Source: Nitrospirota bacterium (GTDB lineage Bacteria; Nitrospirota; Thermodesulfovibrionia; Thermodesulfovibrionales; UBA6898). Taken from it: DNA of 57,698 nt. Location of the stretch: assembly GCA_016214855.1 (NCBI GenBank), contig JACRMT010000017.1, positions 1-57,698 of the forward strand, in the 5' to 3' direction. The translations under genes were made by a program, and so were the position numbers. Of the stretch, positions 9,314 through 27,125 are shown piece after piece (positions within the stretch are counted from its first letter, which is position 1; each line of letters opens with the position of its first letter). The notes under the pieces were generated by a model. The model ran no database searches and had not been told where the DNA came from. It was given only the letters and a program-made list of their open reading frames with translations.

Positions 9314-12300
9314 TCATGAGACAGGCAGTGCCTGCCTCAAGGCATCAACAGCCTGATAGATATCCGCAAGCAGGGTCTCCGCATCCCGCTTCTTCATGTC
9401 GATCTCAAAACCGTCAGGCAGGAATTTCATGCGGCCCTGCCATGCCCCGTGCAGGTTAAAGACCATCTCCGGCTGAACAGGCGTGTCAGGGGAAAATACC
9501 ACTCTCACCCTGTCCTGGACCGACTGTATCTTCAGCGTCATAAGCTCCCGTGCTGCCAGTTTCAGCCTCATGACCGCAAGCAGATGGGATACTTCCTGCG
9601 GCGCCTGACCGAACCGGTCCCTCAGTTCCGCCGCAAGCTCCTCCATATTTTTTTCCGTTTTCAGGGATGAGATGCGGCGGTACAGGCCCATTCTGATCAT
9701 CACATCCTCAACATAGGTCTCGGGTATGAATGCCGAGATATTGAGGTCAATCACCGGATCTATCTCTTCCCTGATATCTTCGCCCCTGAGTTCGGCAACA
9801 GCCTTTTCAAGCATCTCGATATACAGGTCAAAGCCGATCTCATGGATATGACCTGACTGCTCAGGCCCAAAGATATTTCCGGCTCCGCGGATCTCGAGGT
9901 CCTTCATCGCAAGCCTGAATCCTGCGCCGAGATAACTCATCTCCTGCAGGGCCTGGAGCCGCTTCTTGGCCTCGTCGCTCATCAGCGATTCTCCGGGGAT
10001 GATGCAGAAGGCATATCCTCTGAGGTTGCCTCTTCCGACCCTTCCCCTGAGCTGATACAGATCGGCCAGCCCCATCTTGTCAGCCCTGTTGATGATGATC
10101 GTGTTCGCCCTGGGGATATCCAGCCCTGATCCGATAATGGATGTCGAGAGCAGGATATTGATATCCATCTCAAAGAACCGGTGCATGATATCCTCAAGCT
10201 CCCTGTCCGGCATCTGTCCGTGCGCAATGGCAAGCCGTGCCTCAGGTACAAGCATCTGAATGCGCTGGCCTATCTTGTAGATATCGCTGATCCTGTTATG
10301 CACGAAAAAGACCTGCCCGTTCCGCTCGAGTTCCCTGCTTACGGCATCCTTTATCAGCTTCTCATCATATATCGTCACGGTCGTCCTGACCGCAAGCCTC
10401 TCCTCAGGCGGTGTTTCGATCACACTGATCTCACGGATGCCGGAGAGCGCCATATGGAGGGTGCGCGGAATGGGCGTTGCGGTCATGTTCAGCACATCCA
10501 CACTGCGCGCAAGCTCCTTGATCCTCTCCTTCTGGCCGACGCCGAATTTGTGTTCTTCGTCAACGACCAGGAGGCCGAGAGCGTTGAATGCGAGTTTTTT
10601 GGAAAGAAGGGCATGCGTGCCAATCACAATATCCACTTCTCCGGAAGAGATCGCCTTCATGGTGTCATTGATCTCCTTGCGCGACCTGAACCTGCTGACA
10701 TGGTCGATCCTGATCGGAAATCCGGAAAACCTTTCCCTGAAATTGCGATAGTGCTGCTCTGCAAGGATCGTCGTCGGCACCAGCACTGCCACCTGCCGGT
10801 TATCGTACACTGCCTTGAATGCAGCGCGCATTGCCACCTCGGTCTTGCCGTACCCCACATCTCCGCAGAGGAGCCTGTCCATCGGTTTTTCCGACTCCAT
10901 ATCCCGTTTGATATCGGCTATGGCGGTCAGCTGATCAGGAGTCTCTTCATACGGGAAAAAGCCGTCAAACTCCCGGTGGAGCTCAGTGTCAGGGGTAAAG
11001 GTAAAACCGCGGGCGACCTTCCTGCCCGCATAAAGAGCAACAAGTTTTTCGGCCAGTTCATGGACCCTTTTCCGGGCCCGCTCTTTTTTCTTTTCCCAGG
11101 TCTTTCCGCCCAGCTTGTCCATGTTCGGGACAACGCCCTCTTCTGAACGGTATTTGGAGAGCGCCTCGATGTTCTGGATAGGGATGTAAAGTCTGCCGTC
11201 CTGATACTCAAGCTGCATCAGCTCAAGTTCTGTCGAGCCGCTCTGCCTTCTGACGATGCCGGAGAATTTGCCTACGCCGTGGTCACGATGAACAACAAAA
11301 TCGCCCGGCACTATATCATCGAGTGAGGCGAGAAGATTTGCGACCTTGGACCGCTTCTGCTGGCGATACACGCGGCGCTCGCCAAAGATCTCCCGTTCGG
11401 TGAGGATAAGCAGCCCTTCAACATGAAGACCGGAAGACAGCCTGCCTTCCGTAACCGAAAGCCTGCCCTCAAATGCAGCCAGTTCCTGCAAGGCAACACG
11501 CGGCAGGCCGATCTCCTGCTCCCTGAAAAGATCGCGCAGCCTTTCTGCCTGACCCTCGGAAGGCAGTATGATCATCACTCTCTGTTCCTTCGCGATCCCT
11601 GCAATGATCCCGGGCAAAGACTCGAGGCTCTTCCGCTCCTCCGGCAGGATACCAAGACCGCTCACCGAAACAAGTCCTGCATCGACCTGACGCATGACCG
11701 GCAGATCTGCCTCAGGAGCTTCGTCCGGCAGGACCCCTGCTTCAAAGGAATACCGGGAGAGGAATGTTGTCTGTTGGGGAAGAGCCTCTTTCTGATCAGG
11801 CGAAAAGAGACAGTACCAGCGCCTGTCACCGGCAATATCCTTGAATCCCCAGCTCAGTTCAGGCTCCTGCGCAGGAAAGATGGTAATATCGTCAACGTCT
11901 TTGATTGACTTCTGGCTTTCGAGATCGAACATCCTCAGCTGCTCAATCTCGTCGCCGAAGAACTCAATGCGGACAGGATATTCTGACGTTGAAGGAAACA
12001 CGTCGATGATCCATCCCCGCTGACTGTATTGCCCCTTCTCCGTTACCATGGAGGCAGTCCGGTATCCAAGGTCTATAAGAGCCTGTTCAAAGGCCTGCCG
12101 GTCCTGCTGCGCCTTAAGCCTTACCCTGAGCAGCTGCTCATCCAGCAGTTCCCGGTCCCAAAACCCTGCATGCAGGTTCTGAAACGATGTGACAAGGGAA
12201 TCCTCCGGCTTCAGGCTGAGGATGATCCCGGCACGCTCACCGGCAAACTCAGGCCCCTCTGCCTCAGGCATGAAGAGCACCTTCCTGCTGAAACAATCAA

Positions 12301-12604
12301 CACCCTCCCCTTCATCCCCTCCCCTCAAGGGAGGGGCAGTATTATTACCCTCTCCCGCCGTGGGAGAGGGCGAGGGTGAGGGGAATGCATTTATGAACTC
12401 CTTCTTTATCAGAAATAACTGCGCGTAGAAATCAATATCCTTTTTCAGTGCCTCTGCGCTCTGGCTGTCCTTCTCGATAGCAACAAAGGGGCCGGGCGCA
12501 AGGGCAAGCAGAAGCGCAGCAGATGATCCGGTGAGATTATAGACGCGGGCATTCCCCTCAAGGAAAGGCAGGAATCTCTTGTTCAGCAATGAATGGAGGT
12601 TCAA
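9314..12604 (-). CDS. mfd: Transcription-repair coupling factor Mfd
   Basis: 1096 residues, close to the family norm. It displaces stalled RNA polymerase and recruits UvrA. An N-terminal UvrB-like module is followed by the RNA-polymerase-interaction domain (DFVVHRDHGVGKFSGI) and a RecG-like translocase: LCGDVGYGKTEVAMRA, VVDEEHKFGV, TATPIPRTLHMAL and QLRGRVGRG. A C-terminal TRCF domain ends the protein. Residues about 73-101 are encoded by a palindromic repeat inserted in frame (12299-12388). They form a Pro/Ser/Gly-rich loop that is not part of the fold. The start appears to be TTG at 12604, 5 nt after the rfaE2 stop, without a clear Shine-Dalgarno; a different start is possible. Confidence 0.95.
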   Translation of the reverse strand: MNLHSLLNKRFLPFLEGNARVYNLTGSSAALLLALAPGPFVAIEKDSQSAEALKKDIDFYAQLFLIKKEFINAFPSPSPSPTAGEGNNTAPPLRGGDEGEGVDCFSRKVLFMPEAEGPEFAGERAGIILSLKPEDSLVTSFQNLHAGFWDRELLDEQLLRVRLKAQQDRQAFEQALIDLGYRTASMVTEKGQYSQRGWIIDVFPSTSEYPVRIEFFGDEIEQLRMFDLESQKSIKDVDDITIFPAQEPELSWGFKDIAGDRRWYCLFSPDQKEALPQQTTFLSRYSFEAGVLPDEAPEADLPVMRQVDAGLVSVSGLGILPEERKSLESLPGIIAGIAKEQRVMIILPSEGQAERLRDLFREQEIGLPRVALQELAAFEGRLSVTEGRLSSGLHVEGLLILTEREIFGERRVYRQQKRSKVANLLASLDDIVPGDFVVHRDHGVGKFSGIVRRQSGSTELELMQLEYQDGRLYIPIQNIEALSKYRSEEGVVPNMDKLGGKTWEKKKERARKRVHELAEKLVALYAGRKVARGFTFTPDTELHREFDGFFPYEETPDQLTAIADIKRDMESEKPMDRLLCGDVGYGKTEVAMRAAFKAVYDNRQVAVLVPTTILAEQHYRNFRERFSGFPIRIDHVSRFRSRKEINDTMKAISSGEVDIVIGTHALLSKKLAFNALGLLVVDEEHKFGVGQKERIKELARSVDVLNMTATPIPRTLHMALSGIREISVIETPPEERLAVRTTVTIYDEKLIKDAVSRELERNGQVFFVHNRISDIYKIGQRIQMLVPEARLAIAHGQMPDRELEDIMHRFFEMDINILLSTSIIGSGLDIPRANTIIINRADKMGLADLYQLRGRVGRGNLRGYAFCIIPGESLMSDEAKKRLQALQEMSYLGAGFRLAMKDLEIRGAGNIFGPEQSGHIHEIGFDLYIEMLEKAVAELRGEDIREEIDPVIDLNISAFIPETYVEDVMIRMGLYRRISSLKTEKNMEELAAELRDRFGQAPQEVSHLLAVMRLKLAARELMTLKIQSVQDRVRVVFSPDTPVQPEMVFNLHGAWQGRMKFLPDGFEIDMKKRDAETLLADIYQAVDALRQALPVS
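12303..12382. repeat. GC-rich palindromic repeat inside mfd
   Basis: Two hairpins, CCCCTCCCCTCAAGGGAGGGG and CCCTCTCCCGCCGTGGGAGAGGG, lie between C-rich and G-rich flanks that partly pair. The repeat lies wholly inside the mfd reading frame and preserves it. It is related in design, though not identical, to the elements at 13171, 30241, 41054, 42714 and 43782. Confidence 0.8.
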
Positions 12605-12609
12605 GGATG

Positions 12610-13068
12610 CTACGCTGACTCTAAGATCTTCTCTATGATCCGGGTGGTTGAAAGCCCTCTGACATAAGGAAGGCTGCGGGTCTCTTTTGCAATGTCCGAG
12701 CCGACGATATCCTCAGGCTTCCAGTCACCGCCTTTCACGAGTACATCAGGCATCACTGCCCTGATAAGATTGTACGGCGTCTTCTCGCGGAAGATCACGA
12801 CATGATCGACTGAAGCAAGGCCCGAGAGGACCTCTGCCCTGTTCTTTTCGGAATTGACCGGTCTGCCCGGCTTGATGCCGGAAACAGACGCATCAGAATT
12901 AAGCCCGACAATAAGGACATCGCCCAGCTTCTTCGCCTGCTTCAGATACCGCACATGACCGGCATGAAGGATATCAAAACAGCCGTTCGTAAAGACGATC
13001 TTCCTGCCGTCCTTCCTGAGCCTGTCGCAAATCTTTTTTATGCCCTGCCTGTCCTGTATTTTTTTCAT
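12610..13068 (-). CDS. rfaE2: D-glycero-beta-D-manno-heptose 1-phosphate adenylyltransferase
   Basis: 152 residues from ATG 13068. It is a nucleotidyltransferase with TNGCFDILHAGHVRYL containing the HxGH active site, then VGLNSDASV and VKGGDWKPEDIVG. It makes ADP-heptose for the lipopolysaccharide inner core and is the separate C-terminal half of HldE, without the kinase domain. ATG 13068 has GAGGA five nt upstream. An in-frame ATG at 13089 would start inside repeat DNA and is less likely. mfd follows after 5 nt, and the operon continues from dxr. Confidence 0.9.
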   Translation of the reverse strand: MKKIQDRQGIKKICDRLRKDGRKIVFTNGCFDILHAGHVRYLKQAKKLGDVLIVGLNSDASVSGIKPGRPVNSEKNRAEVLSGLASVDHVVIFREKTPYNLIRAVMPDVLVKGGDWKPEDIVGSDIAKETRSLPYVRGLSTTRIIEKILESA

Positions 13069-13082
13069 GGAGTCCTCAAGGT

Positions 13083-13268
13083 GTTGCAATGGTTTTCTTC
13101 ACCCCCCCTCCTTACCAAGAAGAGGGTTCGATTCCTTCCGCTGTCGCCAAAAGTTGCAATGGTTTTCTTCAACTCCCCTCCTTACCAAGGAGGGGTTGGG
13201 GGAGGTTATGACAAAATGCCTATTCAAACCCCACCTCGCCTCCCCTTGGTAAGGGGAGGGATAACCCC
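13083..13268. repeat. Palindromic repeat cluster upstream of rfaE2
   Basis: A 38-nt direct repeat beginning GTTGCAATGGTTTTCTTC occurs at 13083-13120 and 13153-13190. The second copy runs into a full two-hairpin element (13171-13268): CCCCTCCTTACCAAGGAGGGG and CCTCCCCTTGGTAAGGGGAGG. The first copy is truncated. The cluster occupies most of the rfaE2-Nudix gap (13069-13330). Confidence 0.8.
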
Positions 13269-13330
13269 ACTCGGGATGAATAGAGAAGTCACGCTGACCC
13301 TCTCTGAAATTATCTGCCATAGCGGCAGAA

Positions 13331-13777
13331 CTATGCCTGCATCTCCTTCAGCCTGGCGAATGCCTTCTCCAGGATCGAACGGTCGCCCCGGTAGCTGATC
13401 CTTTCAAAGGCACTGTCAAATGAAACCCATTCAGCCATTTCAACCTCTGCATCATGGTCTGAGGTCTCGCCCTTCACATACTCCATGAGATAAAAAGAGA
13501 CCGACTTCCTGCATTTCGTATTCTCATCTTTGATATAGTACCAGTAGCTGATGTCTCCCAGTTTATCTACGATCCTGCCGGTCAGACCTGTCTCTTCCCT
13601 GACCTCCCTGACCGCAGTCATCTCAGGCGTTTCTCCCTTATCAATAATGCCCTTTGGCAGGCACCAGGTCTTGCCGCCTTTGACAGAGACCAGGGCGATT
13701 TCAGTGCCGCCCGGGGTCCTCCTGAAGATTACCCCTCCGGCAGATGTCTGCTTGATCAGCGAAGCGGGTTTTATCAT
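13331..13777 (-). CDS. Nudix hydrolase
   Basis: 148 residues with a perfect Nudix box: GIIDKGETPEMTAVREV followed by REETGL, fitting GX5EX7REUXEEXGU. The start SAGGVIFRR and the LPKG before the box resemble Ap4A/NUDT2-type diphosphohydrolases, but the substrate cannot be fixed from sequence. The ATG overlaps the stop of the upstream ybgC by 4 nt (ATGA), so the two are translationally coupled. Part of the dxr-rseP-ybgC-nudix run. Confidence 0.9.
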   Translation of the reverse strand: MIKPASLIKQTSAGGVIFRRTPGGTEIALVSVKGGKTWCLPKGIIDKGETPEMTAVREVREETGLTGRIVDKLGDISYWYYIKDENTKCRKSVSFYLMEYVKGETSDHDAEVEMAEWVSFDSAFERISYRGDRSILEKAFARLKEMQA

Positions 13778-14181
13778 CCCTGACCCTCTTCGCTTACCGC
13801 CTGCATAATGTCCTGCCGCAGCCGCAAAGGTTTCATCGCCGGGTTCACACAGCCGAGCTTCACAACTGCCTGCACCAGACGTTCGTTGGTTGCATCGCGC
13901 CTGATCTCATGCCTGAAGCTTATGGATGCAGGACCGACCCGGTCAACAACGGTCTCTATGGCAAGGACATCGCCGTATCTTCCCGGTGAAAGGTATTTCA
14001 GGGATGCCTCGGCAACGACAAAAAAGATCTTGTCGTCAATAAGCTGCTTCATGCTTATGCCCTTTGATTCAAGGAACTCGGTCCGGGCCCGCTCGCAGTA
14101 TTTCAGATAGTTCGCATAATAGACGACATTGCCGCAGTCAGTATCTTCATAATAGATCCTGATCCTGAGAATATGGGCCAT
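13774..14181 (-). CDS. ybgC: YbgC/FadM-type acyl-CoA thioesterase
   Basis: 135-residue single hotdog-fold protein. The family motif IYYEDTDCGNVVYYANYLKY carries the catalytic Asp, followed by ERARTEFLES. It hydrolyses acyl-CoA or acyl-ACP; in Proteobacteria YbgC belongs to the Tol-Pal cluster and phospholipid metabolism, but no tol gene is seen here. It starts 2 nt after the rseP stop and overlaps the Nudix gene by 4 nt. Confidence 0.88.
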   Translation of the reverse strand: MAHILRIRIYYEDTDCGNVVYYANYLKYCERARTEFLESKGISMKQLIDDKIFFVVAEASLKYLSPGRYGDVLAIETVVDRVGPASISFRHEIRRDATNERLVQAVVKLGCVNPAMKPLRLRQDIMQAVSEEGQG

Positions 14182-14183
14182 GC

Positions 14184-15263
14184 TCAGAACGTCTTCCCGG
14201 TAATAAGCCTGACAATATCATTGTAAAAGGCAAAGGCCATAAGACTGAGCAGCAATACCAGCCCGATCTTCTGGGAGATGATGATCACCTTGTCGCTGAG
14301 CGGCTTTCTCCTGATCGCTTCAATGCCCATAAAAAGGATATGCCCGCCGTCGAGCACCGGGATCGGCAGCAGGTTCAGCACGCCCAGATTGATACTGATA
14401 ACAGCCATAAAGGTGAAGAAACTCATCGCCCCGTGGCTCGCCTGCTGGCCTGCCATCTGAAATATCATGATCGGGCCGCCGATCGTGTCGGCAGGAATGA
14501 TCCGCTGAACCAGCTTCACCATCGAAACCAGGGTCAGCACAGAAATATCCCATGTCCGAGAAACAGCAAGGGAAAAGGCGTTGACAATGCCTGTCTGCTT
14601 CACCTCAGTCCTGCCCGAAGGGGTTATCCCGATCAGGCCGACCTCTTTATCCTCGCCGAAAAGGTTCTTGACCACCTTCTTCTCCGGCCGCACCATAAGG
14701 GTAAGGATGCTTCCGCCTCTGTCGATTTTGATGGCCAGCTCTCTACCCGGCTGCTCATGGATCATCTCTGTCATCTCATCCCATCTGATGATCTGCCTTC
14801 CATCGACCTCAATGACCCGGTCCCCTTTCATGATCCCCTGCTGTGCAGCAGGAGAATTGGGCGTGATATCACCGACCTCGGCGAGCATGTACGGCACACC
14901 GTTCATGAACACCAGAAAGAAGATCAGCACGGCAAAACAGAGGTTGAAGAACGGCCCGGAAAAAACAACGGAAAACCGTTTCCAGATCGGCTGAGAATTG
15001 TACGCCCGGTGTTTTTCTTCTTCAGGAATAACCTCCTCCTCTTCAGGCGTGTCGGACTGGCCTAACATCTTCACATACCCGCCAAGAGGAAATGCGGAGA
15101 GAAGGTATTCTGTCTCGCCGTATTTCTTGCCGATCAGTTTCGGACCGAAACCCAAAGAGAATTTCAGCACCTTTATGCCAAGGGACTTTGCAAAGATAAA
15201 GTGGCCAAGCTCATGCACAAAGATGAGTATGCCTAACAGTACTGCCGCGTATACGAGCATCAT
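14184..15263 (-). CDS. rseP: Site-2 intramembrane zinc protease RseP
   Basis: 359 residues, a single-PDZ version of the family. The first membrane helix carries the zinc motif HELGH (about 18-22) with FIFAKSLGIKV after it. The central PDZ domain contains GIMKGDRVIEVDGRQI. The third zinc ligand lies in NLLPIPVLDGGH (LDG motif). It cleaves transmembrane anti-sigma factors and signal-peptide remnants in the inner membrane. ATG overlaps the dxr TGA (ATGATG), so translation is coupled. dxr-rseP adjacency is common in bacteria. Confidence 0.95.
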   Translation of the reverse strand: MMLVYAAVLLGILIFVHELGHFIFAKSLGIKVLKFSLGFGPKLIGKKYGETEYLLSAFPLGGYVKMLGQSDTPEEEEVIPEEEKHRAYNSQPIWKRFSVVFSGPFFNLCFAVLIFFLVFMNGVPYMLAEVGDITPNSPAAQQGIMKGDRVIEVDGRQIIRWDEMTEMIHEQPGRELAIKIDRGGSILTLMVRPEKKVVKNLFGEDKEVGLIGITPSGRTEVKQTGIVNAFSLAVSRTWDISVLTLVSMVKLVQRIIPADTIGGPIMIFQMAGQQASHGAMSFFTFMAVISINLGVLNLLPIPVLDGGHILFMGIEAIRRKPLSDKVIIISQKIGLVLLLSLMAFAFYNDIVRLITGKTF

Positions 15264-16727: not shown

Positions 16728-16982
16728 GTGCAGACAACAAGACTGTCAAGTAAAGGCCAAATCATAATCCCCAAGGCATTGCGGATGCGGCATCACTGGG
16801 AACCGGGGCAGGAGCTTGTGGCTATCGATAGCGGAGACGGTATTCTTCTCAGGCCCACATCACCCTTCCCCGAAACTTCCCTGAAAGCCGTGGCCGCGTG
16901 CCTTCCCTACACAGGCAAGGCCAAGACCCTGGAAGAAATGGATGAGGCAATCAGGAAAGGCGCCAGAGATGACCGGCGTTGA
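16728..16982 (+). CDS. vapB: VapB-type antitoxin, AbrB/MazE DNA-binding fold
   Basis: 84 residues. The N-terminal swapped-hairpin AbrB domain is clear (TTRLSSKGQIIIPKALR, then GDGILLRP). The C-terminal tail (EEMDEAIRKGARD) should bind and block the toxin. The start is GTG 16728, preceded by GAGGGAGA at good spacing; the nearby ATG at 16720 is out of frame. The gene overlaps vapC by 14 nt. Such pairs autoregulate their promoter. Confidence 0.88.
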   Translation: MQTTRLSSKGQIIIPKALRMRHHWEPGQELVAIDSGDGILLRPTSPFPETSLKAVAACLPYTGKAKTLEEMDEAIRKGARDDRR

Positions 16983-17358
16983 CACCAATATCATTGTCCG
17001 CCTGCTGACCGCTGACGATCCTTCCCAGTCCGCAAAAGCACGCGCCCTGTTCAAGAACCACGATATATTCATATCAGACACGGTCATGCTCGAAACCGAA
17101 TGGGTTCTGCGGTATGCATATGGTTTTGAGCCGGCTGCCATACAGAAAGCGTTCTTCGACCTCTGCGGCCTGCCCAATGTGGTGCTGCCCCAGCCTCACC
17201 GCATGCTGAACGCTCTTCGATGGTTCTCAGAAGGTATGGACTTTGCCGATGCCCTGCATCTTGCTGCAAGTCAGGACTGCCGCACATTCGTCACCTTCGA
17301 CCAAAAGATGGCCAAGAGAGCGAAAGGCCTCGGTGACTGCAGTGTAAGAGAAGCATAA
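16969..17358 (+). CDS. vapC: VapC-type PIN-domain ribonuclease toxin
   Basis: 129 residues from ATG 16969. PIN catalytic acids are visible: Asp in GVDTNIIVRLL, Glu in MLETEWVL, Asp in DFADALHLA and Asp in TFDQKM. VapC toxins cleave tRNA or rRNA; the target here is unknown. I chose ATG 16969 over an upstream in-frame ATG at 16942 because MTGVDTN is the usual PIN start. Overlap with the antitoxin indicates coupled translation. Confidence 0.88.
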   Translation: MTGVDTNIIVRLLTADDPSQSAKARALFKNHDIFISDTVMLETEWVLRYAYGFEPAAIQKAFFDLCGLPNVVLPQPHRMLNALRWFSEGMDFADALHLAASQDCRTFVTFDQKMAKRAKGLGDCSVREA

Positions 17359-17938: not shown

Positions 17939-18507
<569 letters not shown>

Positions 18508-18798
18508 TCAAATGAATAAAGGGCCTTCCTGATCGAACGGCTTATTTGCACCAACATGCTCAACTTTGTGCTTCCAGTTCGATCCAAGATAATAAAATCT
18601 CAGGCTGTCCTTCTCCTTGCTTATCTCAGATTCCAGTCGCTCCTTCAGCACAGTCCATTGCGCAGGATCAACAATACATTCAAACACCGACTTTTGCACC
18701 CTCTGCCCGAAGTCCTCACACGCCCGCGCAACTCTTCGGAGACGGCGCTGACCTCCATCATCAGACGTAGCCACATCATAACTGACTATCACAAACAT
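18508..18798 (-). CDS. cas2: CRISPR adaptation protein Cas2
   Basis: 96 residues with the ferredoxin-like Cas2 fold. MFVIVSYDVAT carries the conserved Asp, and the RRVARACEDFGQRVQKSVFE stretch is typical of type I-C Cas2. With Cas1 it forms the spacer-integration complex. GAGGGG precedes the ATG by about 6 nt. cas1 ends 9 nt upstream. The leader and array follow directly. Confidence 0.95.
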   Translation of the reverse strand: MFVIVSYDVATSDDGGQRRLRRVARACEDFGQRVQKSVFECIVDPAQWTVLKERLESEISKEKDSLRFYYLGSNWKHKVEHVGANKPFDQEGPLFI

Positions 18799-18807
18799 AG
18801 TGTCCCC

Positions 18808-19839
18808 TCACTTCCATATAAAAGACGGATAACCATCTATATCTCCCCTCAGATAACGCGCCATTAACAGCGCCTGAGCATAGGGGAAAAGTCCAATTGC
18901 AATCTTCTCCTTAAGAAATGGGTGCTCAATCTCCTCCTGCTTACGCTTCTGATAGGCAACAAGAACCGTTTTTCTCGTCTCATCATCCATCAGCACTGCC
19001 CCTGATTCTTTTTTTGTAAATCCCTTGGCCTGCACCTGGCAAAGGTTAATCAACGAAAGCGTAAGCCGATCCACCAAAAAAGGCCGAAACTCCTCCATGA
19101 TGTCGAGCGCCAACCCATAACGTCCCGGACGGTCCCTGTGCAGAAAGCCGACTGCCGGGTCAAGACCGACAGATTCGAGTGCCGAGCGAACATCATGCAT
19201 AAGAATCGTATAGAGAAAAGAGAGGAGACAGTTCACATAATCCAGCGGTGGCCGCCGGTTTCGCTCATTAAAAGTAAAATCATCCTTCTGGCATGTTATC
19301 AGATGGTCGAATGCTCCAAAATAGGAATGTGCCGACTCTCCCTCAATCCCTCGCACAGTATCGAGGTCATGATCACCCTGTAATCTTCGCAACGAATTGG
19401 AAAGGACCTGTGATGCCCGCGATATTGCATCAGAATCCACCTTGTCGGCGTGGTCCCTCAACGATCTCTGAAGAACAGTGCGGCAGTTTGCGACTTTGCC
19501 GGTCACAACAGCACGAGCTATCGAGGCAGAAGTCTTCAGATCGTCCGCCTGCCGGTACTGTTCACGCCTGAGCAGGACATTGCCGGATACAGGCCCCTGA
19601 ACTTTTGCAAGGAACCCGCCGTTTTCTGTATGAAAGCTGATTGCAACACCCTTCTCTGCGCAAAAGCCCATCAAGTAGGGGCTGCATGAGACCTGTCCGA
19701 AGCAGACAATCCCGCCCAATGTATGCACAGGCAGACGCAGAGCGACTTCTCCGTCAACCTTCACGGCAACGGTCTCACCGTCCTTCTGAAGATAGGCCCC
19801 CTGCGTCGTGACGAACAGAGTATTAAGCAGCTTCTTCAT
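18808..19839 (-). CDS. cas1: CRISPR integrase Cas1
   Basis: 343 residues. Metal ligands of the Cas1 active site are visible: Glu in IEGESAHSYF, His in VGFLHRDRPGRYGL and the acidic LALDIMEEFRP. It integrates protospacers at the leader end together with Cas2 and, in I-C systems, Cas4 for PAM selection. It overlaps cas4 by 4 nt, so the adaptation genes are translationally coupled. Length and motifs show no sign of decay. Confidence 0.97.
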   Translation of the reverse strand: MKKLLNTLFVTTQGAYLQKDGETVAVKVDGEVALRLPVHTLGGIVCFGQVSCSPYLMGFCAEKGVAISFHTENGGFLAKVQGPVSGNVLLRREQYRQADDLKTSASIARAVVTGKVANCRTVLQRSLRDHADKVDSDAISRASQVLSNSLRRLQGDHDLDTVRGIEGESAHSYFGAFDHLITCQKDDFTFNERNRRPPLDYVNCLLSFLYTILMHDVRSALESVGLDPAVGFLHRDRPGRYGLALDIMEEFRPFLVDRLTLSLINLCQVQAKGFTKKESGAVLMDDETRKTVLVAYQKRKQEEIEHPFLKEKIAIGLFPYAQALLMARYLRGDIDGYPSFIWK

Positions 19840-20480
19840 TCCGCCTCCATCGCAGACAGCAGATATTTACTCGCTGACTTTGCTTTTGCACAGGTCTTGG
19901 GCATGCAGAGTTCAATCAATGAGCATTTATCGCATTTCTTCGCATATTCAGCTTTCGGTGTTACTCCGGCTTCAATAAGCTCATGCACCCTTTGGCTGAT
20001 TTCAGCCGTTTCCGCGCGAAGCCTATCGTCAAAGACAACATTCTCCCGGCGACGTGTCTGTCCATAGAAGAGCGCACCTGCCGGTATATCCACGTTCAGC
20101 ATTTCTTCAAGGCAGATTGCCTGAGCACAAAGCTGCACCCTGTCGCAGTCGTCCATCTTTGGCTTCCCGCGCTTGTATTCCACAGGAAACGGCAGCCAGG
20201 TTCCGTCATCTCTCTTGTGGAACTCGACCACATCAGCCTTGCCTATAAGCCCCAGTCTGAGCGACCGCATCGGCACGCTATAATCGATGCGGACATTCCC
20301 TCGCGATTCGAACTTGTTGCTGTCAGCCTTGTCGTGCATAATCCTACCCTCTGCTGTGAAAAGGTTCTCTGTCCATAGCTGTTCGATATGGATCAAAGCA
20401 CACTGCCGCTCGCAAAAAACAAAATGCTGCAAGGCAGAAAGCATGATGAGGTTGTCCTCACTATAGGACTTACTGGTCAT
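19836..20480 (-). CDS. cas4: Cas4 PAM-selecting nuclease
   Basis: About 214 residues from ATG 20480. It is a RecB-like nuclease with an iron-sulfur cluster. Cysteines occur in FCERQCALIH at the N-terminus and in KCDKCSLIELC at the C-terminus. Catalytic residues are in GKADVVEF and FPVEYKRGKP. It trims prespacers and defines their PAM end. An in-frame ATG at 20540 would overlap the four-helix-bundle gene; I prefer 20480, which gives the normal Cas4 N-terminus and follows that gene's stop by 7 nt. Confidence 0.93.
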   Translation of the reverse strand: MTSKSYSEDNLIMLSALQHFVFCERQCALIHIEQLWTENLFTAEGRIMHDKADSNKFESRGNVRIDYSVPMRSLRLGLIGKADVVEFHKRDDGTWLPFPVEYKRGKPKMDDCDRVQLCAQAICLEEMLNVDIPAGALFYGQTRRRENVVFDDRLRAETAEISQRVHELIEAGVTPKAEYAKKCDKCSLIELCMPKTCAKAKSASKYLLSAMEAE

Positions 20481-20487
20481 ATTTGAC

Positions 20488-21084
20488 CTATTTCTTCCTT
20501 CTCTCTGACCGCACCCGATAGAGCCTTTCCGTGAAGCCACCCTCTTCCAAAAACGCCTTCTCTAAGGCCTTCAGTTGTTGGTCAAGCAGGTAGTTTGTCT
20601 GATGGATCAGGCAGACCATGGTATTTGCAGCGGTTTCAGAGGGCGAAGCCTCCAGATAGGTCTTATAAGTCAAATAGGACCTATTCTTAGCATAGGCCAG
20701 CTTTCTGACAGCCTGGGCATCTGCGTGATCTTTTCCCCAAAGAGGAAGTCCTTTCTGCCTAAGATAATCCTTAAAGTCCAGAAGAAGTTCCTCAAGACTT
20801 GCCCGAGCAATTCCTACCAGCTTCAGTTCAGTCTTCTTGGAAGTGCCTGAGGCCATGCTCCCTTCGGCGATATTCTGTTTGCCGCTCCTCGCAGCCTGCA
20901 CCATCTGATCATGCGTGCGAGAGCGGATATTGATAAACCTGTTGCAGAACACCACCGTCGCGTCATAAACAATCTCCGCCATCTTGTAAGATTGCAGCTC
21001 CCGATAGCCGCCGTGCGGCGGGATGAGACATTCATCCTTATTTATTGAGGGCACGACGTTTATCTCCTTTTTCTCAGAATCCAT
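20488..21084 (-). CDS. Four-helix-bundle (S23/IVP-like) protein embedded in the cas operon
   Basis: 198 residues from ATG 21084. The middle (SRTHDQMVQAARSGKQNIAE, then GSMASGTSKKTELKL, then ARASLEELLLDFKDYL) matches the four-helix-bundle family that includes the 23S rRNA intervening-sequence protein and Avd of diversity-generating retroelements. The C-terminal NTMVCLIHQTNYLLDQQLKA and EEGGFTERLYR match the 'suffix domain' version. Family members are basic barrel-like pentamers that bind nucleic acid. The gene overlaps the cas7 stop by 11 nt and ends 7 nt before cas4, so it is translated with the cas genes. It is not a standard type I-C component and its role here is unknown. Confidence 0.85.
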   Translation of the reverse strand: MDSEKKEINVVPSINKDECLIPPHGGYRELQSYKMAEIVYDATVVFCNRFINIRSRTHDQMVQAARSGKQNIAEGSMASGTSKKTELKLVGIARASLEELLLDFKDYLRQKGLPLWGKDHADAQAVRKLAYAKNRSYLTYKTYLEASPSETAANTMVCLIHQTNYLLDQQLKALEKAFLEEGGFTERLYRVRSERRKK

Positions 21085-21913
21085 CAATTTCTTCCGGTTT
21101 CAACCCTTCGAGATTATCCAATCTATAAGTCCCATCCGGGTTTACTGACAATGTTTTGTGAACCTTTGCCGATGAATATTGACCTGGTCTGCTGTTATGC
21201 TGCCACCAGAACACCTTCTCAATAGCCATGCTCCCTTCAGGCCGGGCCGATGAGGCATCACCTTCGAACAGTTTTGGCAAGATGCCCTTGATGATTTCGG
21301 CATCATCGTTGCTAAACCCCGTTCTCTCGGCCAGTTGCGGATTCATGCTTCCGAAAGTGACATAGAAGGCCCGATCCACTCGGTGCTTCATTCCCATAGT
21401 ATCGGAACTCTTTTTGGTGCCATCGCCCTCGCCACTCACACTTTTTGTAATCTGGGTGCTGGTGACGCTAACCGGTTCAACGCTGAAAGCTGACTGAATA
21501 GTGACTGGCCCGCGAATCGGAATGGAAACCCCGTCTTTTTCCTCGCTTTTGAAGGCAAATAACTGACCAAATGACCTTACGTCCAACCATTTTTCGCAGG
21601 CCTTCTTAGCGGTGGTTTCAGGTGTTGTTCTCCTGATGTTGAATGCATCCTTTCCAAGACCATAATTATCGTCCTCTGCGCGGGCTTTTAGGCTGGGCAT
21701 GCCATCGGTCTTCTTTTCATCCGACTGAACGAATATCTCATGTTTGGCCTCCTGCATACGATCCCGAATCTTCCGTTTCAAACAGACATCACTGACTTCG
21801 CCATATCCGTCATAGTCTGTCCGGGGCCGATTGCCGTTCAAAGGGTCACCGTTAGGATTGGCGTTTTTCACACTGAAGATAACCGCAAAGTCAATTTTTC
21901 TGTCCAAGCTCAT
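21074..21913 (-). CDS. cas7: Cas7 (Csd2), type I-C Cascade backbone
   Basis: 279 residues. The start DRKIDFAVIFSVKNANPNGD followed by PLNGNRPRTDYDGYGEVSDV is the typical Csd2 signature. Several copies coat the crRNA spacer in Cascade. A good Shine-Dalgarno (AAGGAGAACA) lies in the 17-nt gap after cas8c. Its last codons overlap the start of the four-helix-bundle gene. Confidence 0.96.
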   Translation of the reverse strand: MSLDRKIDFAVIFSVKNANPNGDPLNGNRPRTDYDGYGEVSDVCLKRKIRDRMQEAKHEIFVQSDEKKTDGMPSLKARAEDDNYGLGKDAFNIRRTTPETTAKKACEKWLDVRSFGQLFAFKSEEKDGVSIPIRGPVTIQSAFSVEPVSVTSTQITKSVSGEGDGTKKSSDTMGMKHRVDRAFYVTFGSMNPQLAERTGFSNDDAEIIKGILPKLFEGDASSARPEGSMAIEKVFWWQHNSRPGQYSSAKVHKTLSVNPDGTYRLDNLEGLKPEEIDGF

Positions 21914-21930: not shown

Positions 21931-22359
21931 TTATTTATTATCAAGCTCAATAGCTTCATCTTGCCCTTTTCGCACCCACTTCCCTTTTTCTAATTTGAAT
22001 TCCCTGAACCACTTTCGCTGGGAATGAAAACCTAACAAAAATTCACCGGACAAGGATTCTTTTGATTTGAATTCATTGACATCAAATGCGTCACACACAT
22101 CATCAAGCAATCTCTTATACGCATCGGCCAGTGGCGCTATATTGTTCTTTAGTCGTTCCTGATATGGGACAATTCCCTTTTCAATATTGAGCCATGTTGA
22201 AAATGGCCTATCGGCAAATCGTTGCATAAGCCTGCTGGCTACTGTTGACCGTGGCTTTTCATCAGCAATAATCATGGCCATCTCTTCAGTTCGCTCCGCT
22301 ATGGCCAAAAGACGACCATAAAGGTAATCCCGTGTGGTTCTGTCTTGTTCCAGTGTCAT
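21931..22359 (-). CDS. cas11c: Cas11c small subunit from an internal start in cas8c (predicted)
   Basis: Inside cas8c, in the same frame, AAAGGAGG (22369-22376, minus strand) stands exactly 9 nt before ATG 22359. Translation from it yields a 142-residue helical protein starting MTLEQDRTTRDYLYGRLLAI and ending at the cas8c stop. Type I-C systems are known to make the Cas11c small subunit in this way from the 3' part of cas8c. The near-perfect ribosome-binding site within a coding region is strong support. It would stabilise the crRNA-DNA hybrid as part of Cascade's inner belly. Confidence 0.75.
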   Translation of the reverse strand: MTLEQDRTTRDYLYGRLLAIAERTEEMAMIIADEKPRSTVASRLMQRFADRPFSTWLNIEKGIVPYQERLKNNIAPLADAYKRLLDDVCDAFDVNEFKSKESLSGEFLLGFHSQRKWFREFKLEKGKWVRKGQDEAIELDNK

Positions 22360-23991
22360 TGCATATGTCCTCCTTTGATTATTATTCGGATGTCTCCCGT
22401 AGAACCCGCGATACAGGGCACAGGCAACGCCTAAATTTCTCTCCCATTCCCAATGTTCACAACTATTACGATTACTGGCGCGCCTGACAGCCGCATTCAA
22501 AATATCGCGAGGAAAAGGCCTGCCATCAATAATGCACGGCAAAATACGTTCATGAAGATTCTTCCTCAGGACGTCATTGCTTTTCAGGATGTCGCCATAG
22601 GCAGCCTCGGTGATGGTCCTCGGGGCGGGTGAACTTACTGGCCAAATTATTTTGCTGACCGGTTTCTTGCCCTCTCTTGAACTTGGGACTTCGATTGTAT
22701 GCCGCTGAGGCCAGGCAAACTGGGTATGCCACTCTTCAAGTCTCTCGAAAAACTCACTTGCCATCAGCTCTCGATAGTACGTAACTGATAACCTTCCCTT
22801 AGTCGCAGCATCAAGTGCTAAGACGATAATAGATTCCGAGGGCTTTAAGTTTGCTGAATAACCTCTTATGTAATTGTTGAGTTGTAGAGCGAAAGATTGT
22901 CCGGCATCAATTGAATGATCTATTACGGGCTCGTCTATCCTGACTTCAGTAGACAGTCCGACTTCCTGATGCAATGCAACCCAAATATCTTCCATAAGTT
23001 CAGGAATCGGCTTCCCCGAGACAGCCCATGCGACAATTGCCTGTTCTCTGTTTTGATATCCTTGTCTGGCAATCAACCATCGCAATACATTGTGAGCTTT
23101 TTGGCTCACTTCGAATGAAAGTGCACATGCTTGATCCGCTTCAGTAAACCGCCCGCTAAAGGTTAAATAGGTGGAATCGGTTGGCACGGAAATCAATTTT
23201 GCGTCATTGATTTTTTTGATGATTCCTTTTGGGTGACTATCCACAATGAAGCTTGCCTTCCCCAGGAGCTGACATATGCCATTTTCTTGATTCCTATCCG
23301 CTGAAAAAGCTTGCCACTTCTCTATCAAGGCAGAATCGCCCCAGGTTTGGTCGGCCGGTTCTCCAAGACGTTGCACTCGCCAGCGAATCTTTGCATTTCC
23401 CTGCTCACCGCCACTAATTGCGTTGAGTAGTGGTGGTTTTGCTTGTTTTTTCTTCGAGTCTTTTCCGAAAGGCCCTTGTTTTGCCCAGTTGTTAATCAGT
23501 ATTTTGCTTCCGTCATCTTCATATGAGAACAAAATTCCTGCATAAAGCAAATCCCGAACTACAGTACCTTTTGCAACATATTTTTTTACCGCTTCAATTT
23601 TGGGATGAGTGAATTGAGAGGACGCCCATGAATCAAGAATCTCGTAATACTTCTCAAAATATGATGCCTTAGTTCCTCCGAAATCAGGGTAATCCTTTGC
23701 GACATATTGGATTTGCTCCGCTAAGGGATAGGGGGCAGGCCCATTCGTACGCCCTGTTAAACTCTTTGGGGTTATTGGGATAAGTGTTTCTTTCCCCTTC
23801 CAATAAGCCTGCTTGCCGTAAGTGACCTCATGGACAAGAGACTCTGCCCTTACAAAATTCCCTTCTCCATCAAGAATGATTTCTATATGGCATTGTTCGT
23901 TCTTGTGGTAAAACGGTTCTAACGAGTCATTTACTTCGTCGTTCGTGGAGACAGCCTCATAGGTTTCATACAACTTTGCGAGCCAGCTCAT
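21931..23991 (-). CDS. cas8c: Cas8c (Csd1), type I-C Cascade large subunit
   Basis: 686 residues, slightly longer than many Csd1 proteins. MSWLAKLYETYEAV is a typical opening, with VLRWLIARQGYQN and ARIL-style NLGVACALYRGFYGRHPNNN later. It recognises the PAM and recruits Cas3. It overlaps cas5 by 4 nt. The last 142 codons double as cas11c. No frameshift or lost segment is seen. Confidence 0.95.
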   Translation of the reverse strand: MSWLAKLYETYEAVSTNDEVNDSLEPFYHKNEQCHIEIILDGEGNFVRAESLVHEVTYGKQAYWKGKETLIPITPKSLTGRTNGPAPYPLAEQIQYVAKDYPDFGGTKASYFEKYYEILDSWASSQFTHPKIEAVKKYVAKGTVVRDLLYAGILFSYEDDGSKILINNWAKQGPFGKDSKKKQAKPPLLNAISGGEQGNAKIRWRVQRLGEPADQTWGDSALIEKWQAFSADRNQENGICQLLGKASFIVDSHPKGIIKKINDAKLISVPTDSTYLTFSGRFTEADQACALSFEVSQKAHNVLRWLIARQGYQNREQAIVAWAVSGKPIPELMEDIWVALHQEVGLSTEVRIDEPVIDHSIDAGQSFALQLNNYIRGYSANLKPSESIIVLALDAATKGRLSVTYYRELMASEFFERLEEWHTQFAWPQRHTIEVPSSREGKKPVSKIIWPVSSPAPRTITEAAYGDILKSNDVLRKNLHERILPCIIDGRPFPRDILNAAVRRASNRNSCEHWEWERNLGVACALYRGFYGRHPNNNQRRTYAMTLEQDRTTRDYLYGRLLAIAERTEEMAMIIADEKPRSTVASRLMQRFADRPFSTWLNIEKGIVPYQERLKNNIAPLADAYKRLLDDVCDAFDVNEFKSKESLSGEFLLGFHSQRKWFREFKLEKGKWVRKGQDEAIELDNK

Positions 23992-24692
23992 AACCGGGCC
24001 TCTTCCTGATCTACGGGGAGAACGTTCTTCTCCAGACCGAATTCCTTGGGAATCATCTCGCGAACGAACCGCTGGACCTCACACTCTTCCGGCCTCGGAA
24101 ACTCGATAATGCCTTTCCTCATAACGGCATGCCAGAACCGGCTGTGTAGCTCATTCGTACCGGTTTCATCCGGGTAGTCGAAACCGTGGAAAATCAGGCC
24201 GAAGCTGAGCTCGTCAATGCCATCATATGGGCTTTCACCCTCACCGAAGACACAGGGTTCGACATATCCTTGGCAGTCACGGGTACCGAGAAAGATGTCC
24301 TGCCGCCCACCTTTCTCAAGCATCCTTGTGACGATACTGAAATGCTTGCCGTCGATCCGATCTTTCTTTAGGGCGGGTTGCTGTTCATTCCATTCGAAAT
24401 GGGCTTTGACCTGGTATTCCACATCATGAAGGAAGGTATAGATGGCAAGGCTATTGCCACCGCCCCAGACCAGTGGTTTCGTGCCCTTGGTCTGTGTGCG
24501 CAGGGGCTTCATGACCCGAATCTTGTCAACGTGCCAGATGATCGTTGGTTTCCAGTAAATGGATTTCAGCACCCCTTTAATGGCCTCATAGGTAGGGACA
24601 TGATAGGAGCATTTCTCCCCGCCGATTTTGGTAACAGGGTCGGTAAACAGCGCATACCGCCCCCATAGCCGGAAACTGATGTCGTTCTTCAT
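23988..24692 (-). CDS. cas5c: Cas5c crRNA-processing endonuclease
   Basis: 234 residues. In type I-C, which lacks Cas6, Cas5c cuts the precursor crRNA. The catalytic residues described for Bacillus halodurans Cas5d (Tyr46, Lys116, His117) are matched at the same numbers here: Y46 in LKSIYWKP and K116-H117 in DGKHFSIV. Other motifs are LVWGGGNSLAIY and LGTRDCQGYVEP. It lies 12 nt after cas3 and overlaps cas8c by 4 nt. The array repeat has the matching 11-nt handle. Confidence 0.96.
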   Translation of the reverse strand: MKNDISFRLWGRYALFTDPVTKIGGEKCSYHVPTYEAIKGVLKSIYWKPTIIWHVDKIRVMKPLRTQTKGTKPLVWGGGNSLAIYTFLHDVEYQVKAHFEWNEQQPALKKDRIDGKHFSIVTRMLEKGGRQDIFLGTRDCQGYVEPCVFGEGESPYDGIDELSFGLIFHGFDYPDETGTNELHSRFWHAVMRKGIIEFPRPEECEVQRFVREMIPKEFGLEKNVLPVDQEEARL

Positions 24693-24704: not shown

Positions 24705-27125
24705 CTAAGCGTTTAGAAATTCCATTGGGCCGATCTCTTCGGTGGATAAGCCGAAGTCCCGGCTGTAATACCGCTCGTCGAGATAATATATTTCCGCTCC
24801 TTTCTGGACAGGCCTCACAGCCTGAGCTTCCTTCAATTTCTGCATAACATTTGGAAACATATTGACGCTGTATTTCTGCGCTCTCTTTAGCAATTGATGT
24901 GCTTTTGTCGGTTCAAACGCCGCACAGAGACCGGTGATAATTTCCTTGCCCTCTCCGTAAGGGACGATGACTGCCTGAGTCGGGGCGTCAATCGCTTGGA
25001 AAATCTTTCCTGCTGTGCCGAAGGATTGTCTGAGTTGCAGCGGCTCTGTTCTTGCAATATTCCGGCGATTGTCGCTGAGAAGACTCAATAGGCTATCCTG
25101 TCGTCCGGCTTGTCGGGGGGAGACCGGATAATCCATCTCAGCCGCCCGGCTGTAAAAGTAATAGGAGAAATAGAGAGACATTACTTCAGGGTCTATCAAA
25201 TCGGTATCACCTTTTTCTGACAAGACCCGCAAGGCTTTATCACGGCCCTCCTTGATATCGTGGAGCATATCAATTGCCTCTTCCCGTGGGTTGACGACAT
25301 GCACGGTTGCCTGCGGCAATTTGCCGTTTCTATTGCAGCGCCCGGCCGCTTGGGCAATGGAGTCCATACCGGCCAGAAAGCGGATCACCGAGGCAAAATC
25401 CACGTCCACTCCTGCTTCGATTAATTGGGTGCTGATACACATTACGGGCAACTCATCGTCCAATCGTTGCCGAACCTGGTCCAGAATCACTTTACGATGG
25501 GCCGGACAGAGACTGGTACTGAGATGGAACAGGCTACCTGCCTCGACCTTGTCTTTGCACGACTCAAACAGAAGTTGCGCCCACTTTTTGGTATTGACTA
25601 CGACGAGGCAACTCCCCTTTTGTTCATATTCATCGACAGCCAGCTCGGTCAACTCGGATTCTGTCCATCCAGCTGGACGGACCTTGTTGCTGATTGCCAC
25701 TCTTTTGAGCTGTTCAAACAATTCGACAACATTTTCGACCAGCTCATTTCCTTTAGGAATGGCCAGTTGCCCTTTGTCGGGTGATTTCAACTTATCGAGC
25801 AACGGTTGCGTCGCAGTGCAAAGGACAACCGTGGTGCCAGCCTCTGAAACAAGAAAATTTACAGCATTACAGAAAAGATGGACGCAGTTGATCGGTAAGG
25901 TCTGAATCTCATCAAAAATCAGAACCGATCTTGCCAGCTGGTGCATCTTCCTGGCCCCGCGCGTTCCCCCGCTGAAGAGGGTGTCGAGAAACTGGACCAT
26001 GGTGGTAAAAACGATCGGTGCGTCCCAGTTCTCGGAAATGAGCTTGTCTCGCCAGGTCTGTCGTTCCGGCTCAAGATTAGAATGATGTTCGAGCACCCAG
26101 GGGTATTTGTCACCCTCAACCTCAAGCAAGTCGCGAATGGCCTGGGCATTTTGTTCGATGATCGAGGTATAAGGGATGATATAGATGATGCGATCAAGGC
26201 TGTGCTTCTGGGCATGGTGCAGGGCGTAACGTATGCTGGAATAGGTTTTGCCGCCACCGGTTGGCACGGTTAAGGTATAAATCCCCTGCGGATCAACTGC
26301 CCTTTCCTTGCACCGCTCCGAGATAGACCTGCGGATGGTGTCGATGTCATGCCGGACTGGTAGGTTAGTAAGCTTGGTTTCAAGGCGTTCAATGGCAACC
26401 GGCCAGTTAGCACGCCCCTGCGACCGCAAACTTTCATTGCCCGGGTTTTCAAAATCGGCGCTGTTAATTCTGTCCGCATCAATCAGGCAGCTGAACAAGA
26501 AACGAGTCCACAGACCAATACCGAAATGCCTGACGATCATGGATTGATATTTACCGGGATCAACCAACTTGAGAATTTGTTGCGAACATTCTTGAATGAG
26601 GCCCGGTGTAGCAAGAAGGTTAAGCTTCTTTAAAACCTCAGGATCTACAGACTCCATGCACTCCTGCAGATGGGTTTTTGCATCGGCCTTGCGTATCCTG
26701 GCAACAAATCCATTTACCCCATCCGGCTTCAAACAATCGATCAATCCAGCACCATGGTGAGAGGCAAGACAGAGCGCAAGTATTTGCCCTACCAGTTCCC
26801 CCTGCTGACCATATCGGCGAAAGTTTTCCCATATCCACTGTGCTCCGGCACTTGAATGATCAATTTTGCCCCTGAGTGTCACGGCATCGACGTAATCATC
26901 ATCTGCATCGGGGTTCAGTATTCCGGTTGCCGATTGGATGTAAGCCTGAAACTGTCTGCTGTACTTGCCAAAATCATGAAGCAAACCAAGTAACTCCCCC
27001 GCCTCAGGTATGCCAAGCTTGCCAGCCAAGCAGCGCGCAATTACCGCAGTGTTCATCAAATGTTCACTTACAGTTTGTTCCTCCCCGTCGTGTGTCCGAC
27101 GATGGGCTATGAAGAGGTCATTCAT
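24705..27125 (-). CDS. cas3: Cas3 HD nuclease-helicase
   Basis: 806 residues. The N-terminal HD nuclease (about 1-230) has SEHLMNTAVIARCLA, LLHDFGKYSRQFQAY and ASHHGAGL. The SF2 helicase has Walker A VPTGGGKTYSS, DEAH-type IFDEIQTLP, STQLIEAGVDVDF and QAAGRCNRNG. It unwinds and degrades DNA marked by Cascade. It is the first gene of the operon cas3-cas5c-cas8c-cas7-4HB-cas4-cas1-cas2. All motifs are intact, so interference should be functional. Confidence 0.97.
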   Translation of the reverse strand: MNDLFIAHRRTHDGEEQTVSEHLMNTAVIARCLAGKLGIPEAGELLGLLHDFGKYSRQFQAYIQSATGILNPDADDDYVDAVTLRGKIDHSSAGAQWIWENFRRYGQQGELVGQILALCLASHHGAGLIDCLKPDGVNGFVARIRKADAKTHLQECMESVDPEVLKKLNLLATPGLIQECSQQILKLVDPGKYQSMIVRHFGIGLWTRFLFSCLIDADRINSADFENPGNESLRSQGRANWPVAIERLETKLTNLPVRHDIDTIRRSISERCKERAVDPQGIYTLTVPTGGGKTYSSIRYALHHAQKHSLDRIIYIIPYTSIIEQNAQAIRDLLEVEGDKYPWVLEHHSNLEPERQTWRDKLISENWDAPIVFTTMVQFLDTLFSGGTRGARKMHQLARSVLIFDEIQTLPINCVHLFCNAVNFLVSEAGTTVVLCTATQPLLDKLKSPDKGQLAIPKGNELVENVVELFEQLKRVAISNKVRPAGWTESELTELAVDEYEQKGSCLVVVNTKKWAQLLFESCKDKVEAGSLFHLSTSLCPAHRKVILDQVRQRLDDELPVMCISTQLIEAGVDVDFASVIRFLAGMDSIAQAAGRCNRNGKLPQATVHVVNPREEAIDMLHDIKEGRDKALRVLSEKGDTDLIDPEVMSLYFSYYFYSRAAEMDYPVSPRQAGRQDSLLSLLSDNRRNIARTEPLQLRQSFGTAGKIFQAIDAPTQAVIVPYGEGKEIITGLCAAFEPTKAHQLLKRAQKYSVNMFPNVMQKLKEAQAVRPVQKGAEIYYLDERYYSRDFGLSTEEIGPMEFLNA

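Follow-up and report, generated by a model that had tools for sequence, protein, structure and literature searches.

A small gene lodged between the effector and adaptation genes of a type I-C CRISPR-Cas operon of a Nitrospirota bacterium encodes a four-helix-bundle (4HB) protein. We propose that this protein and the 9-bp repeats that accompany its gene form a mobile intercistronic cassette, which in CRISPR operons has become tied to the adaptation module, and we put the probability of this reading at roughly 45%. The gene was studied in a 57,698-nt stretch, hereafter the window (contig JACRMT010000017.1, positions 1–57,698, assembly GCA_016214855.1).

An ORF check confirmed the open frame at 20488–21084/21087 on the minus strand as real. 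Its product passed the NCBIfam cut-offs for TIGR04258 ("four helix bundle suffix", 83.1 bits against 40) and TIGR02436 ("four helix bundle protein", 30.9 bits against 24), and scored 29.3 bits with the Pfam model PF05635 (23S_rRNA_IVP), below the gathering score of 33.8. A chance reading frame is ruled out by these matches and by conservation across phyla, and a phage- or plasmid-borne gene was rejected as there was no phage record and a single distant plasmid match. The surrounding cas genes were each confirmed by models, giving the full type I-C order cas3-cas5-cas8c-cas7-4HB-cas4-cas1-cas2 adjoining a CRISPR array (Table 1). The initial annotation had described an S23/Avd-like four-helix-bundle gene embedded in a type I-C operon between cas7 and cas4, and both parts of that description were confirmed. 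Its 11-nt overlap with cas7 is true only of a start at ATG 21084. The likelier start is the in-frame GTG 21054, which stands behind AAGGAG at a spacing of 9 nt and would put 19 nt between cas7 and the 4HB gene; the resulting 189-aa product fits the CRISPR-associated relatives (188–192 aa). The 7-nt spacing to cas4 holds when cas4 is started as in its own relatives. Close to the CRISPR locus, at 16728–17358, lies what looks, as read by eye, like a pair of genes for an AbrB-type antitoxin and a PIN-domain toxin.

Table 1. Features of the type I-C locus and of the 4HB gene in the window.
Feature	Position	Strand	Remarks
Four-helix-bundle suffix gene (TIGR02436 + TIGR04258)	20488..21084	-	likelier start GTG 21054, alternative ATG 21084
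TIGR04258 4helix_suffix domain	20494..20640	-	NCBIfam model
In-ORF 9-bp repeat array, TAGGTCCTATTTGACTTATAAGACCTA, peptide RSYLTYKTY	20657..20683	-	family-conserved as nucleotides
Junction 9-bp repeat array: 4HB stop, 7-nt gap, cas4 start and first codons	20464..20490	-	
cas4, start ATG 20480	19836..20480	-	model
cas1 (type I-C)	18808..19839	-	model
cas2	18508..18798	-	model
cas7/csd2	21074..21913	-	model
cas8c/csd1	21931..23991	-	model
cas5c	23988..24692	-	model
cas3	24705..27125	-	model
CRISPR array, 1 degenerate + 5 intact 32-bp repeats (repeat given as + strand reading)	17939..18301	+	

The repeats occupy a variable linker ahead of the last long helix, where they run in frame with a 9-bp period. 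The units are dyad-symmetric, with GWC every 9 bp. Type A arrays (GWCNTATAN) encode the peptide RSYxTYKTY and type B arrays (GTCNGACNN) the peptide SDRSDKSD; rarer types were found at loci L048, L056, L063, L064, and L067. When array codons were compared with the remainder of the same genes in 85 type A members, tyrosine was encoded by TAT in 246 of 250 cases inside the array (283 of 534 elsewhere), arginine by AGG in 106 of 116 (171 of 1314), and lysine by AAG in 67 of 70 (545 of 1047). The in-ORF array is conserved as nucleic acid and not as peptide, and this codon usage rules out the repeats being a coding feature.

Similar arrays were observed within ~100 bp up- or downstream of many 4HB genes and were nearly absent from the rest of the fetched loci. 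Compared with distant flanks, arrays are enriched tens- to hundreds-fold or more inside these genes and up to 100 bp away. In all 38 cases in which both could be typed, the linker and flank arrays were of the same type, with no discordant case. The window has two arrays, both overlooked in the initial annotation, one inside the gene and one over the 4HB/cas4 junction, and these are the only three-unit pattern matches in the 3.3-Mb genome at ≤3 mismatches. As the reversed pattern also gave two matches, the evidence in this genome is the co-location of the two arrays and not their number. By a strict count, 20 of the 34 members of the CRISPR-associated clade that lie at the effector/adaptation border (see below) have a junction array.

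There was no Rfam match for the repeats in six loci, so a known RNA family was rejected, and both hairpin propensity (mean z about -0.7 to -1.1) and covariation across arrays were weak on average beyond what the repeat composition gives. An in-ORF hairpin upstream of the array is striking in some members and absent in others, and was rejected as a universal feature. Perfect palindromes were observed just ahead of the linker array in L087, L080, L033, L098, L109, L127, and others, with differing sequences and two topologies (e.g., GCTGTACGCAGGCTTGCGTACAGC), and in L091, L099, and L119 the ORF contains another palindrome toward its 3' end. These are possibly template-switch products or structured RNA.

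Dispersal of the arrays was examined in 296 sampled genomes of the phylum, 46 of which have TIGR04258. In some genomes with a 4HB gene, type A arrays are scattered widely, with 132, 63, 38, 33, and 21 pattern hits against 0–1 for the reversed control (overlapping matches inside one array were counted separately). Most of these dispersed arrays are solo and lie between genes or at stop codons. At least two type A pattern hits outside the 4HB gene were found in 16 of the 46 genomes with TIGR04258 and in 10 of the 250 without it (Fisher p ~2e-8, a statistic that ignores phylogeny). Genomes G186, G248, G002, G021, and G045, some of them incomplete, have many type A arrays and no TIGR04258 match; perhaps they encode four-helix genes that have no suffix, have lost the gene, or have missing contigs. 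Family members combine a repeat-flanked gene with further copies of the repeat scattered through the genome, whereas the window's own genome has the in-gene and flanking copies and no others.

The 4HB gene is also found at gene junctions that relatives leave empty. Genes identified by eye from their translations as selB and kdsB are adjacent in genomes G120, G303, and G301; this junction holds an array, a 4HB gene, and a second array in G188, and a solo array in the near relative G297. A further array in G188 stands alone, ahead of a gene resembling glutamine synthetase. No target-site duplication was recognized in the empty/occupied pairs (L086 versus L211, and selB-kdsB), and no recombinase was seen.

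The neighborhoods examined, those of 59 TIGR04258 matches and those of 80 named loci outside the phylum, fell into three kinds. In many genomes and phyla the gene lies between a cas effector gene and cas4-cas1-cas2, which is the recurrence that the initial annotation had set as a test of the window's arrangement. The second kind is a type I restriction operon, hsdM-hsdS-(fic)-4HB-hsdR. The third comprises many single sites, such as before argG, between selB and kdsB, after a P-type ATPase gene, and inside an apparent efflux operon (by reading). At L073, the type I HsdR encoded downstream of a 4HB gene (10813–14352) has a GIY-YIG domain that separates the nuclease part at its N terminus from the helicase part. 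The 4HB proteins of L040, L042, L048, L049, L051, L055, L064, and L065 are extended at the C terminus by a zinc-ribbon-like stretch (CPxCGxxMxxRTxKxGxxxGxxFWGCxGYPxC).

In a tree of 127 4HB proteins, the window's protein falls in a clade of 38 with 98% support, 34 of which are encoded at the border between effector and adaptation genes. Thirty-two of these lie at cas4-cas1-cas2, and two (L101 and L112) lie between the effector genes and cas1e in type I-E loci. The border placement covers I-C, I-C/I-B-like, and I-E loci in several phyla; the effectors of the window (I-C) and of L101 and L112 (I-E) were typed by models, while "I-C/I-B-like" is a reading from gene order and similarity. Such recurrent placement with cas1/cas2 across subtypes marks the gene as adaptation-associated by position. 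The same tree shows that other 4HB lineages arrived independently at the same cas junction. L090 has a type B and a type A copy on either side of cas4, and in L098 the 4HB gene separates cas4 from cas1.

One 4HB lineage is co-inherited with cas4-cas1-cas2. Among 32 loci of the CRISPR-associated clade, 4HB distances track those of cas1 (rho 0.36), cas4 (0.34), and cas2 (0.46; Mantel p 0.002–0.004 for the three genes), and are uncorrelated with those of the effectors cas7 (rho -0.10), cas5 (0.03), and cas3 (-0.01). The phylogenetic match with the cas genes that had been looked for is therefore found for the adaptation genes and not for the effectors. This favors the initial annotation's suggestion of a part in spacer acquisition over its suggestion that the protein binds crRNA. 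Modules of cas4-cas1(-cas2) whose Cas1 is ~64–85% identical to that of the window were observed with very different effectors (L035, L070, L084, L086, and L200–L213), which indicates frequent module exchange. The junctions of this module also hold other small genes, between cas4 and cas1 in L035, L202, L206, L208, and L209, and between cas1 and cas2 in L035 (12818–13204); these encode a protein of ~350 aa with no NCBIfam match and a GxxExxY protein.

The tie is not a fixed one. On the Cas1 tree, the presence of the 4HB gene switches about nine times; the gene is absent from 16 of the 53 sampled loci, close relatives included, and near-identical Cas1 proteins occur with and without it (L207/L209). 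Type A and type B genes swap at the same junction inside one Cas1 clade, and two loci have a decayed 4HB gene beside an intact cas4, with an internal stretch deleted in L209 and a split frame in L066. In addition, sister proteins of the CRISPR-associated clade are encoded before hsdR, argG, and kdsB. Given this repeated gain, loss, swapping, and decay, and the placement of the sisters, the 4HB gene is not a core Cas gene.

These same observations keep alive the possibility, also raised in the initial annotation, that the gene is purely a passenger, that is, a mobile gene that tolerates operon junctions, has no effect on CRISPR, and uses its arrays for its own spread or autoregulation. The turnover on the Cas1 tree, the decayed copies, the exchange of types, and the varied neighborhoods of its sisters (type I restriction, argG, selB-kdsB, efflux, and ATPase) would all be expected of such a gene. 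It is harder to reconcile with the fact that 34 of 38 clade members keep to the adaptation border in different phyla and subtypes, with co-divergence with cas1, cas2, and cas4 and not with effectors, and with a protein identity that is higher for 4HB (80%) than for Cas1 (73%). On balance we consider a pure passenger somewhat unlikely. Less probable still is that the 4HB protein is an adaptation accessory working physically with Cas4-Cas1-Cas2, for example by holding prespacer or leader DNA. Its position heading the adaptation genes of I-C and I-E loci or falling among them (between cas4 and cas1 in L090 and L098), the co-divergence described above, the listing of the 23S rRNA intervening-sequence protein (IVP) with adaptation modules in a figure legend (PMC10910872), and the binding of nucleic acid by its fold kin are consistent with such a role. 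However, the gene is missing from many loci on the Cas1 tree, the same family occurs in restriction and housekeeping operons, and a physical role in adaptation would leave the repeats wholly unexplained. A Cascade or crRNA-binding subunit is very improbable and was rejected, as the gene's position after cas7 is offset by the lack of co-divergence with cas7, cas5, or cas3 and by the occurrence of the same clade beside unrelated effectors.

The relationship of the 4HB protein to Avd was assessed by its predicted structure. The AlphaFold model (mean pLDDT 84) had as its top three structural matches two 23S-IVP structures, 2gsc (Z 16.3) and 2rld (Z 14.2), and 8ub8_C, the Avd subunit of a diversity-generating retroelement (DGR) ribonucleoprotein, with Z 12.2 compared to 11.6 for the best unrelated bundle. 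A search of the PDB by sequence gave no match. As modeled, the protein belongs to the 23S-IVP/Avd fold group, in line with the reported resemblance of PF05635 to Avd (PMC10053308). The fold thus upholds one half of the proposal that the protein might act as Avd does with reverse transcriptases. The other half fails, since the operon has no reverse transcriptase and RVT_1 matches in the genome were restricted to contigs C8 and C4, where they represent an intact maturase of a group II intron and a second copy that is interrupted. No DGR reverse transcriptase, template, or variable repeat was found. An Avd-like partner of a reverse transcriptase, of either DGR or RT-Cas1 type, is accordingly a remote prospect. 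With the 23S rRNA IVPs (PF05635), the TIGR04258/TIGR02436 proteins share sequence, fold, and the insertion of a small gene where relatives have none, but the genes described here lie outside any 23S rRNA intervening sequence, bear in-frame 9-bp arrays conserved as nucleic acid, and include one clade tied to cas4-cas1-cas2.

Our preferred reading, the protein-repeat cassette, would operate as follows. The 4HB protein, probably a basic ring like its fold relatives, would bind the 9-bp repeats. We infer that it is their nucleic-acid-binding partner because the repeats travel with the gene, are of the type found in its lineage, and show conservation of sequence. Gene and repeats would then act together as a mobile or exchangeable intercistronic cassette, one lineage of which may have settled semi-stably into the adaptation module of CRISPR operons. 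In the least certain step, the junction array might allow the 4HB protein, or the hairpin-prone RNA itself, to couple the translation of cas4-cas1-cas2 or to hold it down. Such control cannot be general, as ~40% of the loci of the CRISPR-associated clade have no clear junction array.

The nearest analogues are the pairs of REP sequences and REP-associated tyrosine transposases (RAYTs). These share with the 4HB system dispersed intergenic dyad repeats and a related gene that has copies of those repeats on its flanks. They differ in that the 4HB protein is a four-helix bundle with no match to a transposase family, including Y1/HUH, and in that the 4HB repeat also lies in frame inside the gene, with its 9-bp unit in tandem. 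An association of this family with adaptation modules is not in itself new, as Altae-Tran et al. (2023; PMC10910872) listed "23S rRNA IVP" in a figure legend among novel adaptation-module associations. That correspondence is by family name only, and the main text contains no mechanism, repeats, cross-subtype clade, or pattern of gain and loss. Nothing else on the suffix family was found beyond that paper and PMC10053308, and a narrow search of literature outside subscription papers found no description of the 9-bp repeats, which suggests that the protein-plus-repeat module was undescribed until now. We tentatively suggest, at somewhat lower confidence than for the cassette itself, that such elements, which pair a protein with repeats and are mobile or exchangeable, make up a class not described before. 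They would insert between operon genes, carry a recognition array in frame in their own gene, and seed solo repeats, and several separate recruitments would have brought them to the CRISPR adaptation border with an array over the cas4 start.

If this is correct, one of the commonest uncharacterized families of small genes would gain a concrete partner, the repeats, and an activity, array binding, and there would be a cause for a set of apparently undescribed dispersed repeats. A linked fourth gene would be added to the CRISPR adaptation modules of several phyla, and the miscellaneous appearance of the neighbors of 4HB genes would be explained.
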